Shown piece by piece: positions 11,466 to 16,370 of a stretch of DNA of 37,509 nt. The stretch is taken from assembly GCA_024280475.1 (NCBI GenBank), contig JAJRQA010000070.1, positions 1 to 37,509 of the forward strand, given 5' to 3'. Source of the stretch: Alphaproteobacteria bacterium. Its GTDB lineage: Bacteria > Pseudomonadota > Alphaproteobacteria > Rhizobiales > JAKIUO01. The position numbers and the translations under genes were made by a program. Under the pieces are notes generated by a model that had not been told where the DNA came from, did not search any database, and saw only the letters and a program-made list of their open reading frames with translations. How positions within the stretch are numbered: position 1 is the stretch's first letter; every line of letters begins with the position of its first letter.

Positions 11466-13277
11466 GTGAAAGACAGCCTATTTAAGGATGTGCGCGACAT
11501 CGAGCGGGAGGATGATGCCCTCCAGAAGAATTATTCCACGAGGGAGATTGTCGAGCGTGTCTGGCGCGAAAACCTCTATCCGCGCCGCAAACTGGTGATA
11601 TTGGCCCTGGTCGCAATGCTGTTTGCGGCGGTAACAACCGGGCTTATGGTGCCGGTTATCAAATTCGCCATTGATGATATCTTCATGGCGCGAAAAATGG
11701 AATTTGTCTATTATCTGGCTGGGGCAACCTTTCTTATTACTCTCATCAAATCGGTTTCGGAATATGTCTCAAAACTGACGATGGGCTATCTTGGCAACCG
11801 GTTCATCGCCGATATTCGTATCGCACTGTATGAAAAACTGACCTATGCCGATATGCAATGGATCGAGGCCACCCATTCTGGTTTGTTTTTGTCCAATTTC
11901 CTTAATGATACCAATTTCATTCGAGATACGGCCAGCCGGGTGATCATTGCGCTGGGCGAAAATCTCACCAAGGCGGTGTTTCTGGCGCTGGCCATGATCT
12001 GGCTTGATCCGCTGATGTCGATGATTATACTGGCCTCCATGCCGCCTGCGATCTTTTTTATGAACCGCCAACGCGGGGAGATGAACCTTGCCACCAAGAA
12101 AACCCTGCAAGAAACCGGCAATCTGAGCAAGCTGATCACACAGACACTGCGCTCTTTGCGCGTGGTGAGGGCTTATGGTCAGGAAGAGCGCGAAATAAAA
12201 CGCGCCAAACATACCATTGAACGCGCCCTTGAATTTAGTATGCGGTCCCTGCGGGCCAGAGCAAAATCTGGACCGGTGGTGGAGCTGTTGGCCGGGATCG
12301 GTTTTTCAGTGGCGATTTTGTTTGCTGGTATGGAAGGGGCGCAGGGGCGCATGACAATTGGCGAGTTCAGCGCCTTTCTGGCCGCTGCCATGTTGCTCTA
12401 TCAACCGCTCAAAGCACTGGCGCAATTGCAGATCAGTTTGCAAGAAGGGGTGGCCGCATCCGGGCGGGTATTTGGCATCATTGACCAGCCGCAAACAATG
12501 CTCGAGCCAGCTGGTGCGTCCGATTTGAAGCTGAAGAAGGGATCTATCAGCTTCAAGAAACTTGATTTTGCTTATGAGGATGGCAATCTGGTACTGAGCG
12601 ATTTCTCCCTTGATATTCCGGCAGGAAAATCCGTGGCGCTGGTGGGGCCGTCGGGAGCTGGAAAAAGCACCATTCTCAATCTTGTGTTACGGTTCTTTGA
12701 CCCTGTGAAGGGAAAAATTTTGATTGATGGTCAAGATATTTCGCAGCTCAAGCTCAGCTCGCTGCGAGCCCATATTGCCCTTGTCACACAAGATCCCATT
12801 TTATTTGACGATACTCTGGAAGCCAATATCGCTTACGGCTCCAAAAAGCTCGATACGGGCAAGGTGAAAAAGGCTGCCAAGGCCGCCGCCGCTCATGATT
12901 TCATCATGGCATTTTCGCAAGGCTATCAATCACCGGCAGGAGAGGCTGGCAATAATCTGTCGGGTGGTGAGCGGCAGAGGATCGCCATTGCGAGGGCCTT
13001 GATGCATGATGCGCCAATATTGCTGTTGGACGAACCAACCAGCGCGCTCGACAGTCAGGCGGAAGAAAAGGTTCAAAAGGCTTTGTCTCATTTGATGAAG
13101 GACAGGACCGTATTAATGATTGCTCATCGTCTGTCGACCATCAGGGATGTTGATATTATTTGTGTTCTTGACAAGGGGCGTATTGTCGAACAGGGCACTC
13201 ATGACGTCTTGCTGGCATCAGGTGGCCTTTATTCGAAGCTATACAAGACGCAGTTTGAAGAGCAAGCCGAGACGTAA
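11466..13277 (+). CDS. MsbA-like ABC exporter (permease fused to ATPase)
   Basis: This 603-residue half-transporter has about six N-terminal membrane helices (from residue 40) and a C-terminal nucleotide-binding domain. The latter has Walker A GPSGAGKST (Lys at about residue 400), the signature NNLSGGERQRIAIARAL, Walker B ILLLDEPTSALD and the switch histidine in IAHRLSTIRD. Such homodimers flip lipids across the inner membrane, and MsbA moves lipid A-core. Placement between DUF4170 and the acyltransferase-WaaA-LpxK genes supports a lipid A flippase role over drug export. The start is a GTG at 11466 shortly after an AAGG-type site; the N-terminal 35 residues are charged and cytoplasmic. The family is broad and sequence alone does not prove the substrate. 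Confidence 0.88.
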   Translation: MKDSLFKDVRDIEREDDALQKNYSTREIVERVWRENLYPRRKLVILALVAMLFAAVTTGLMVPVIKFAIDDIFMARKMEFVYYLAGATFLITLIKSVSEYVSKLTMGYLGNRFIADIRIALYEKLTYADMQWIEATHSGLFLSNFLNDTNFIRDTASRVIIALGENLTKAVFLALAMIWLDPLMSMIILASMPPAIFFMNRQRGEMNLATKKTLQETGNLSKLITQTLRSLRVVRAYGQEEREIKRAKHTIERALEFSMRSLRARAKSGPVVELLAGIGFSVAILFAGMEGAQGRMTIGEFSAFLAAAMLLYQPLKALAQLQISLQEGVAASGRVFGIIDQPQTMLEPAGASDLKLKKGSISFKKLDFAYEDGNLVLSDFSLDIPAGKSVALVGPSGAGKSTILNLVLRFFDPVKGKILIDGQDISQLKLSSLRAHIALVTQDPILFDDTLEANIAYGSKKLDTGKVKKAAKAAAAHDFIMAFSQGYQSPAGEAGNNLSGGERQRIAIARALMHDAPILLLDEPTSALDSQAEEKVQKALSHLMKDRTVLMIAHRLSTIRDVDIICVLDKGRIVEQGTHDVLLASGGLYSKLYKTQFEEQAET

Positions 13278-13323
13278 ACCAGTCGATGACAATAGATAAC
13301 TTATAACAGACAGTGCGAGACCC

Positions 13324-15354
13324 GTGAAAGACAAGAATGCAGAGCGCATAGACAACCTGACAGCAAAGGCGATGGCTGGCTATATCCGTTTGGTGTTCGC
13401 GACCTCAAGGCGTGATGACGATTATGGGCAGCTCAAAGACAGTTTTGCGACCAACGCGCCGCTGATCATTGGCGGCTGGCATGGTACTTTTTTGCTGGCG
13501 CCGGTCTTGATGCCCGAACCTGGCAACGTCAGTGCCGTTGTTGCCCGTCATGGCGATGCAGCGGTGATGGGACGCATGCTTGAGCGCTTTGGCGTCAAGC
13601 TGATCAGGGGCGCCGGAGCAGGGGGTAAAAAGAAAGACAAGGGCGGCATGTTTGCGCTGCGCGCTTCCTTGAGAGAGCTAAAAGCGGGACGCTCTATTGC
13701 CATGACGGCGGACGTGCCGCCAGGTCCAGCGCGCCAGGCCGGGCTTGGGATTATCACCATTGCGCGTCTGTCGGGGCGCCCCATTTTGCCTTGCGCCGCC
13801 GTTACGTCCCGTTTCAAAGTGCTCAATAGCTGGAGCCGGTTCGTCGTCAATCTGCCATTTTCAAAATTGGTGTTGCTGGCGGGGGAACCTGTGTATGTGC
13901 CAGCTGATGCCGACAAGAGGATGATGGAAGACAAGCGCGTTGAACTGGAAACCAAAATCAATGATCTGGTGGCGCGCGGGCATGAAATGGTTGGCGCTGA
14001 CCCCTTGTTGAGTGCACCGCCAGAAGTTGGCGTGCATCAAAAGCTGGGGCTGGCGCTCAAGGCTTATCGCGGTGGCATGAAGCTGGCGCAACCTCTGGCG
14101 CGCCCAATATTGCGGCGCCGCGCCAAGCGAGGCAAAGAAGATTTATCGCGCATGTCCGAGCGCTTTGGTCGGGCAACGATCCAAAGACCGGCGGGCGATT
14201 TGATCTGGCTCCATGCGGCCAGCGTTGGCGAAACCAATGCGGTGCTGCCACTGATCACCTTGTTGTTGGAAAAAACCCCGGGACAATCCATCTTGCTCAC
14301 GACCGGCACGCTGACCTCGGCGCGTATTGCTGCAAAGCGATTGCCCGCAGGGGCCTTGCATCAGTTCATACCCCTCGATACGCCAGATTTCATGAACCGC
14401 TTTCTAGATCATTGGCACCCCGATCTGGCTTTGCTGGTGGAATCAGAAATCTGGCCTAATCTGATGCTCGAAACCAGTGCTCGCGATATACCCATCGCGC
14501 TCATAAACGGCATCATATCGCATAAAAGTTTTCGAGGCTGGCGACGTTGGAGCAGTCTTTCGCGGCCCCTTTTTGGGCGTTTTGACCTTGTGCTGGTGCA
14601 AAATGAACAATTGCAGAAACGCATTTTGCGGCTTGGTGCGCCAGACGTGCGCGTGGTGGGCAATCTGAAAACTGATGCCCCGGCTCTGCCTGTTGACGAG
14701 TTGAAAAAACATCAAATGTTGAAATGGATCGGCACGCGCCCTCATTTTCTTGCAGCCAGCACTCATCCTGGTGAAGAACGCCAGATCATTGAAGCTCACA
14801 AGAGATTACGCCAACAATTTCCTGATCTGCTAACCATCATTGTACCGCGCCATCCAGAGCGCGGCGAGGAAATTGCCCAACTGGTTAGTGATAGTGGTTT
14901 TGATTGTTTGAAACGTTCAAGCGGTGAGGCTCTCACAAACAAAACCAATCTTTATATTGCTGACACGCTTGGTGAGCTTGGCCTGTTTTTCGATATTTCA
15001 AACATCACTTTTCTGGGTGGCTCGCTGGTGGAAATTGGCGGTCACAATCCGATTGAAGCTGTGCGCTTTGGCACCGCGGTTGTCACTGGTCCCAACTGGC
15101 ACACTCAGACTGATAGTTTTAGTGCTTTATTGAAAGGCAAGGGGGCGCGTGAAGTTTCATCGGTACGCGAGCTGGCCGATAGCATAGAAGCTTTGATGAG
15201 CAATGAACAAGAACGTTTGCAGCTGGTCGCCAATGCAGAAAAGATCGTCGAGGAAATGACTGGTGCAACCGATCGCACCTTGGCGGCGATTTCTCCCATG
15301 TTGCCAGCAGGCAAGCGGGCAAAATCCAAGCCAAATATTGAGCTGGCGACATGA
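13324..15354 (+). CDS. waaA: Fusion of DUF374 acyltransferase-like domain with Kdo transferase WaaA
   Basis: One uninterrupted 676-residue frame holds two proteins that are usually separate. Residues 1 to about 235 form a DUF374 (lysophospholipid-acyltransferase-like) domain, with IIGGWHGTFLLAPVL and the downstream IAMTADVPPGPARQAGLG. From about residue 240 the sequence is 3-deoxy-D-manno-octulosonic acid transferase, which adds Kdo to lipid IVA at the inner membrane. It begins with a basic amphipathic stretch, and shows the catalytic-Glu region ASVGETNAVLPL (about residue 300), VESEIWPNL, and the C-terminal FLGGSLVEIGGHNPIEA motif. The linker (VGADPLLSAPPEVGVHQKLG) has no stop, but WaaA's usual N-terminal membrane anchor looks short. 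The start is GTG 13324. lpxK overlaps the stop by four bases, so translation is coupled. The waaA assignment is secure; what the DUF374 domain does is unknown. Confidence 0.92.
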   Translation: MKDKNAERIDNLTAKAMAGYIRLVFATSRRDDDYGQLKDSFATNAPLIIGGWHGTFLLAPVLMPEPGNVSAVVARHGDAAVMGRMLERFGVKLIRGAGAGGKKKDKGGMFALRASLRELKAGRSIAMTADVPPGPARQAGLGIITIARLSGRPILPCAAVTSRFKVLNSWSRFVVNLPFSKLVLLAGEPVYVPADADKRMMEDKRVELETKINDLVARGHEMVGADPLLSAPPEVGVHQKLGLALKAYRGGMKLAQPLARPILRRRAKRGKEDLSRMSERFGRATIQRPAGDLIWLHAASVGETNAVLPLITLLLEKTPGQSILLTTGTLTSARIAAKRLPAGALHQFIPLDTPDFMNRFLDHWHPDLALLVESEIWPNLMLETSARDIPIALINGIISHKSFRGWRRWSSLSRPLFGRFDLVLVQNEQLQKRILRLGAPDVRVVGNLKTDAPALPVDELKKHQMLKWIGTRPHFLAASTHPGEERQIIEAHKRLRQQFPDLLTIIVPRHPERGEEIAQLVSDSGFDCLKRSSGEALTNKTNLYIADTLGELGLFFDISNITFLGGSLVEIGGHNPIEAVRFGTAVVTGPNWHTQTDSFSALLKGKGAREVSSVRELADSIEALMSNEQERLQLVANAEKIVEEMTGATDRTLAAISPMLPAGKRAKSKPNIELAT

Positions 15355-16370
15355 GCGTGTTGGCCAAGGCTCCCAAATGGTGGGATCAACAGCATCATCC
15401 TGTCTCCTATCTGCTTGGCCCTTTTGGTTTGATCTATGGCCTTGCTGTTAAGCTGCGCTTTGCGCTGACCAAATCCTATCGCTCAACATTACCGGTTATT
15501 TGTATCGGTAATTTTACAGTGGGCGGCGGCGGTAAGACGCCTTTGGCGGTTGAACTTGCTGATCTTTTAAGCGCTGTAGGCCACAAGCCGGTTGTGCTGA
15601 CCAGAGGTTATGGCGGGCAGAAAAAAGGGCCACACCTAGTAGATCTGTCAAGAGACAGCGCTATTGAAGTTGGCGACGAGCCATTGATCCTTGCGCAACA
15701 CGCTCCTGTCGTGGTGTGCGCGGATCGGGCCAAGGGTGCGCGCTTTATAGAGCAGATGGACGCCGATGTGATCTTGATGGATGACGGGTTCCAAAACCCG
15801 GGCCTTCACAAGGACCTTTCGCTTATCGTGCTGGATGCGGGTTCAGGCATCGGCAATGGCCGTATTTTCCCAGCCGGACCACTGCGGGCGGGGTTGGATT
15901 TTCAACTGGAGAAAACGGGTGTGTTGGCAATCGTCGACAAAGGCACTGATCTCATAAAAATCGAGCAGGCCTTTGGGGGAGAGGTGTTTCACCTCGAGAT
16001 CGAGCCACTACATGATGAAGCCTGGCTGGCAAAGACGCGCGTATGCGTCGTCAGCGGCATCGCTCGTCCCGGCAAGTTTTATGCAAGCCTTGAAAATCTT
16101 GGCGCTGTTATCGCGCAAAAACACGAATTTCCAGATCATCATATGTTTGGCCAAAAAGATGCCCAAGCGATCTTGAAAGCTGCTGCAAGAGATGGCCTGC
16201 CAATTGTCATGACGCAAAAGGACTGGGTGAGATTGCCCAAAACCGATGAGCGCGGGCATTTGCGAAAAGCGGCCCGTGTGCTGCAGGTGCGCATGAAGAT
16301 CGACGAGCCGCAAAAACTTGTCTCTCGGCTACAAAAAACGATTTCATCAAACACAAAGAGTGCGGATTAA
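15351..16370 (+). CDS. lpxK: Tetraacyldisaccharide 4'-kinase
   Basis: LpxK phosphorylates the 4' position of the lipid A disaccharide to give lipid IVA, the acceptor used by WaaA encoded just upstream. The 339-residue product has an N-terminal membrane-associated helix (LLGPFGLIYGLAVKLRF), the P-loop GNFTVGGGGKTP (Lys at about residue 62), and LTRGYGG, GDEPLILA and ILMDDGFQNP, all typical of the family. The length is normal. Its ATG overlaps the waaA stop (ATGA), so the two are translationally coupled. The stop codon lies inside a 10-bp inverted repeat that may end the operon. Confidence 0.96.
   Translation: MSVLAKAPKWWDQQHHPVSYLLGPFGLIYGLAVKLRFALTKSYRSTLPVICIGNFTVGGGGKTPLAVELADLLSAVGHKPVVLTRGYGGQKKGPHLVDLSRDSAIEVGDEPLILAQHAPVVVCADRAKGARFIEQMDADVILMDDGFQNPGLHKDLSLIVLDAGSGIGNGRIFPAGPLRAGLDFQLEKTGVLAIVDKGTDLIKIEQAFGGEVFHLEIEPLHDEAWLAKTRVCVVSGIARPGKFYASLENLGAVIAQKHEFPDHHMFGQKDAQAILKAAARDGLPIVMTQKDWVRLPKTDERGHLRKAARVLQVRMKIDEPQKLVSRLQKTISSNTKSAD

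Follow-up and report, generated by a model that had tools for sequence, protein, structure and literature searches.

The fused gene and its neighbours

The window, by which we mean the whole stretch of DNA analysed here (37,509 nucleotides of the alphaproteobacterial contig JAJRQA010000070.1), carries on its forward strand a gene of 676 aa with a GTG start (13324..15354) that joins an LpxJ-like DUF374 domain to the Kdo transferase WaaA. The initial annotation had described a single frame running through both domains and this was confirmed, 13324-15354 being open throughout; upstream the frame is bounded by TAA (13297-13299), and the TGA that ends it shares bases with the ATG of lpxK (ATGA at 15351). 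An msbA-type lipid A exporter gene lies directly upstream (11466..13277, forward strand; TIGR02203, 6.3e-154, a score below the cut-off of that model) and lpxK, encoding tetraacyldisaccharide 4'-kinase, downstream (15351..16370, forward strand; assigned from profile matches). All three genes belong to lipid A/LPS.

The N-terminal half of the protein is a DUF374 domain and the C-terminal half a complete WaaA. The DUF374 domain, putatively of LPLAT type, was placed at residues 1-228 (13324..14007, forward strand) using the Pfam match to PF04028 at residues 67-136 (1.7e-18, 66.4 bits against a cut-off of 26.8), its conserved residues and the structural model. A linker of ~12 residues follows (residues 229-240; 14008..14043, forward strand), delimited by profile boundaries and modelled with a pLDDT of ~72 at residues 231-240; measured in the same way, the linker is 12 residues long in the window's genus and 6-21 across the fused clade, Pro-rich and unconserved. 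The WaaA domain, of GT-B fold (14044..15351, forward strand), was assigned from profiles, fold match and conserved residues. It begins with the N-terminal helix region (residues 241-270; 14044..14133, forward strand; helix at 243-268 in the model), whose homologue in unfused WaaA is the membrane-associated helix, and continues with Glycos_transf_N (PF04413) at residues 276-451 (1.9e-62, above cut-off) and Glycos_transf_1 at 487-640. Residues 243-660 match the NCBIfam WaaA model at 3.4e-128, with a score below the own cut-off of that subfamily model.

The model of the whole fused protein (pLDDT 93.7, pTM 0.87) could be superposed on Aquifex WaaA (2xci; Z 33.7, rmsd 5.5 over 352 residues) and on the Acinetobacter enzyme (4bfc; Z 28.9, rmsd 1.6 over 190 residues). 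Among the matches listed for this model there was no acyltransferase fold, the lists being filled by WaaA-type GT-B chains, and the DUF374 half modelled alone from its single sequence gave an unusable model (pLDDT 35). At the level of profiles, DUF374 matched PlsC (5kym) weakly (E 0.0076), and a few DUF374 members match PF01553 (Acyltransferase) and PF03279 (Lip_A_acyltrans), also weakly. The WaaA half retains E303, E373, E375, K449, H510 and E578 in the window. E303 (in HAASVGE) and E373 (in ESEIWPN) are present in 46 of 46 fused proteins, whilst position 375 is Glu or Asp; the acidic residues of these two motifs have a catalytic role in Aquifex WaaA.

Replacement of a reduced WaaA membrane anchor by the DUF374 domain, one of the roles proposed in the initial annotation, finds little support and is no general explanation for the fusion, since the fused proteins keep the N-terminal WaaA helix (median peak hydropathy 0.89, versus 1.01 in split proteins). 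The peak in the window's own species is low (0.28), and a tethering role may apply locally there. Production of WaaA additionally on its own, from an internal start in the linker, would be compatible with the 17 of 46 fused loci in which a possible start has a Shine-Dalgarno match scoring -4 or better, yet we regard it as highly improbable: fused junctions have a median of -2.55, near the -2.1 of control windows inside WaaA, whereas split junctions are stronger (-4.1, p 0.0015), and the best match in the window (-2.9) lies inside the helix. The fused gene is expected to yield one polypeptide.

Distribution and origin of the fusion

The same uninterrupted frame was found in four relatives of the window's genus (70-89% identity), which excludes the missed stop or sequencing frameshift at the junction that had to be considered for the window itself. 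An artefact of missed stop, frameshift or assembly could be invoked on the grounds that the assembly of the window's bin is fragmented and 5.2% contaminated; with the identical open frame in four genus relatives and the fusion in 15 families, this reading is already refuted and keeps practically no probability. In that same bin two syntenic, closely similar LpxL-type loci lie on different contigs (L125, G000:C150; L126, G000:C106), which suggests, in line with the contamination figure, two mixed strains or species.

Across an order-wide sample of 297 genomes, 248 of which had a match, both domains lay in one open frame in ~48 of the 248. Taken together with the genus relatives, these cover at least 15 families (f1, 2, 3, 7, 9, 10, 16, 18, 25, 30, 31, 32, 33, 39 and 46, the f32 locus being cut by a contig end), represented by 46 fused loci. 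The fusion is hence shared with related species, as had been asked of it, and is no peculiarity of this genome; for the order in general, the initial annotation was correct in taking adjacent but separate genes as the commoner arrangement. Sampling 289 genomes from the class and 199 from the phylum gave no full-length uninterrupted match beyond the order, and no published account of a DUF374-WaaA fusion turned up in the literature searched.

In split genomes DUF374 and waaA are adjacent on the same strand, usually overlapping or nearly so, the DUF374 stop mostly falling within ~30 bases of the start of the WaaA domain. At more than 12 split loci the two genes lie in the same frame and only one stop separates them, so that loss of one stop codon would be enough to create the fusion. 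In the WaaA tree the fused rows group together with the exception of family f7, whilst in the tree of concatenated DUF374 and WaaA 41 of 43 fused-group rows fall on one branch (support 99) and the other two, from f7, elsewhere (support 65). Constraining all 43 rows together gave a likelihood 9.9 units above that of the free search (AU p 0.726). Several independent fusions, as the placement of f7 with split rows in the WaaA-only tree might imply, were thus set aside, the constrained concatenated tree being the better one and not rejected. With the 43 rows held together scoring better, one gain is the simplest reading and the fusion probably has a single origin: in the ancestor of a subclade of the order, the stop between an adjacent, co-directional lpxJ-like (DUF374) gene and waaA would have been lost once.

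The fused gene of two f31 genomes (L088 in G260 and L089 in G195) is frameshifted, in one at the linker and in the other inside the DUF374 domain. We considered these loci as ancestral splits and rejected this, as they lie inside the fused clade and are frameshifted, and would be recent breaks or errors.

Three rows inside the fused clade have kept WaaA and lost the fused domain (G236, G252 and G155). In the f2 genomes G236 (100% complete) and G252 (99%) DUF374 is absent altogether, and G155 (f31) has a WaaA standing alone behind msbA together with an unlinked DUF374 protein. The latter (L121, G155:C30, minus strand, 1074-1832, between gltX-like and cysN/cysC-like genes) carries TPDGPRGP and SWDRF motifs and Asp at the position of Asp173, the canonical form, and it looks as if a foreign canonical LpxJ had taken the place of the fused domain. 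Since three lineages have dropped the DUF374 domain and retained WaaA, it is, on this genomic evidence, dispensable and separable from WaaA function. At the loci of the two f2 genera (L123 in G252, L124 in G236) waaA-lpxK is present, msbA is not beside waaA, and its place there is taken by a divergent phosphatase-like frame that carries the motif HCKSGADR. G236 has two neighbouring LpxL-type genes, and we asked whether loss of DUF374 is tied to extra genes of this type; nothing firm emerged, as fused G290 also has two, unlinked, and G252 has one.

A probably altered active site in the DUF374 domain

DUF374 had been treated as a domain of unknown function, which is outdated: its studied members, in Helicobacter, Campylobacter, Wolinella and Rickettsia, are LpxJ late acyltransferases that add the 3' secondary acyl chain of lipid A (PMC6148475). 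LpxJ acts on lipid IVA, and the Helicobacter, Campylobacter and Wolinella enzymes can or must precede LpxL and even Kdo transfer (PMC6148475). The earlier suggestion that the DUF374 domain works on the same lipid A precursor as Kdo transfer is supported by this substrate, and the pairing of DUF374 with WaaA makes pathway sense because LpxJ is able to precede Kdo transfer. A single LpxL/LpxM-type gene is present in most genomes of the order, fused and split alike, which would leave the second late-acylation step free for a DUF374 enzyme. Genomes of six families (f5, f6, f22, f36, f37 and f50) show neither WaaA, apart from one weak match in f6, nor an LpxL-type acyltransferase, and may be without ordinary LPS.

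The LpxJ family lacks the HX4D motif, and in the Rickettsia enzyme activity is abolished by W60A, H61A, D86A, D132A, W172A and D173A, whilst H84 is dispensable (PMC6148475). Five of these six essential residues are retained in the window and the sixth, Asp173, is changed. In the alignment with split relatives, all 46 fused proteins share W52, H53 and W170 of the window; D78 is kept in 45 of 46 and D130 in 43, the other three (L006, L014 and L098) having Glu at this Asp132 position. At the Asp173 position (S171 in the window) 45 of the 46 fused proteins have Ser and one Asn, whilst all 59 intact split relatives have Asp; two apparent 'split' exceptions are the frameshifted f31 loci, which stand outside the 59. 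Two further positions differ, position 56 being mostly His in split and Phe in fused proteins, and position 133 Lys/Arg in split and Pro in fused proteins. As the fused group probably forms a single clade, the association of the Asp-to-Ser change with fusion counts as a single correlated event rather than a statistical trend. Some split proteins (L094, L095 (f43), L096, L105 (f44)) have Asn at the position of the proposed catalytic Asp132. As Asp173 is absent, we class the fused domain as LpxJ-like and not as LpxJ.

A decaying DUF374 domain was considered and rejected on evolutionary rates. The ratio of DUF374 to WaaA distances is 1.10 for fused pairs and 1.11 for split pairs of the order, whereas a dead, drifting domain would give a higher ratio.

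Proposed function and comparison with known enzymes

We favour, with a probability of about 0.57, a protein fused once that combines an ordinary WaaA with a putatively LPLAT-type late acyltransferase, likely active with an altered site. The WaaA half would supply the lipid A precursor with Kdo on the inner side of the membrane, and the DUF374 half would most likely still acylate that precursor with a secondary chain beside the Kdo step, replacing an LpxM. Asp173 has become Ser, and nearby His has given way to Phe (position 56) and Lys/Arg to Pro (position 133); the donor, the acceptor or the order in which this half acts is thus probably unlike that of studied LpxJ, and tethering might hand the lipid from one active site to the other. 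The fuller version, a bifunctional Kdo transferase-acyltransferase whose site has been re-built through the Asp173 to Ser change, with a new donor, acceptor or order and with acylation coupled to Kdo transfer, we put forward tentatively, as possible and somewhat short of an even chance.

What speaks against activity is above all the residue itself: Asp173 is essential in Rickettsia LpxJ, D173A being inactive (PMC6148475), and with this residue absent from the fused domain activity may be lost or different. The two near-complete genomes of the fused clade that carry WaaA without any DUF374 further argue against a need for its function. The same observations would suit a non-catalytic DUF374 half, a lipid-binding or membrane-docking module presenting lipid IVA to WaaA, which could explain the Ser or Asn at the Asp173 position of every fused protein (46 of 46), the loss of the domain in three lineages with WaaA kept and the low WaaA helix hydropathy in the window's own genus. 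We nevertheless think such a module unlikely, as His53 and Asp130, proposed as the catalytic dyad, have been kept over deep divergence together with the remaining essential residues and DUF374 evolves no faster than in split genomes. An altered but active acyltransferase is favoured over a pseudo-enzyme because the domain is constrained (1.10 versus 1.11), and it gains from G155, where the canonical, unlinked DUF374 protein stands beside a lone WaaA as if the fused domain had been replaced.

The fusion might, on the other hand, be neutral, an ordinary LpxJ and WaaA sharing one polypeptide with Ser tolerated and functioning as in split relatives. Genes that were adjacent and often overlapping beforehand, a short, variable and unconserved linker and equal evolutionary rates are all what such a fusion would look like. 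Against it stand the substitution at position 173, which is fixed along the fused branch whilst intact split proteins universally have Asp, and the changes at 56 and 133, and we judge it rather improbable. What is newly seen here is the change of Asp173 in the fused domain, the LpxJ role of DUF374 being already known.

To our knowledge, late acylation and Kdo transfer lie on separate proteins in the lipid A pathways studied so far. A natural fusion would put both at one place, and offers a tool with which to ask whether alphaproteobacterial LpxJ-type enzymes precede or follow Kdo transfer. Loss of an essential residue, fixed in a domain that is still constrained, likewise provides a direct test of the DUF374 acyltransferase mechanism.

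Among known systems, LpxJ shares with the fused domain the Pfam domain PF04028, the lack of HX4D at the conserved His, the equivalents of Trp60, His61, Asp86, Asp132 and Trp172 (W52, H53, D78, D130 and W170 of the window) and a host order mostly with one LpxL-type gene; the window protein differs in being fused to WaaA and in having Ser in place of the essential Asp173. The split DUF374/waaA pairs of other Alphaproteobacteria consist of the same two genes in the same order and on the same strand, some of them in frame and one stop apart, but make two proteins and have Asp at position 173. Likeness to WaaA/KdtA (GT-B; 2xci, 4bfc) extends over the whole domain, its glutamates, the fold and the lpx neighbours, whereas the fused protein adds an N-terminal acyltransferase-like domain to what in Aquifex is a stand-alone enzyme.
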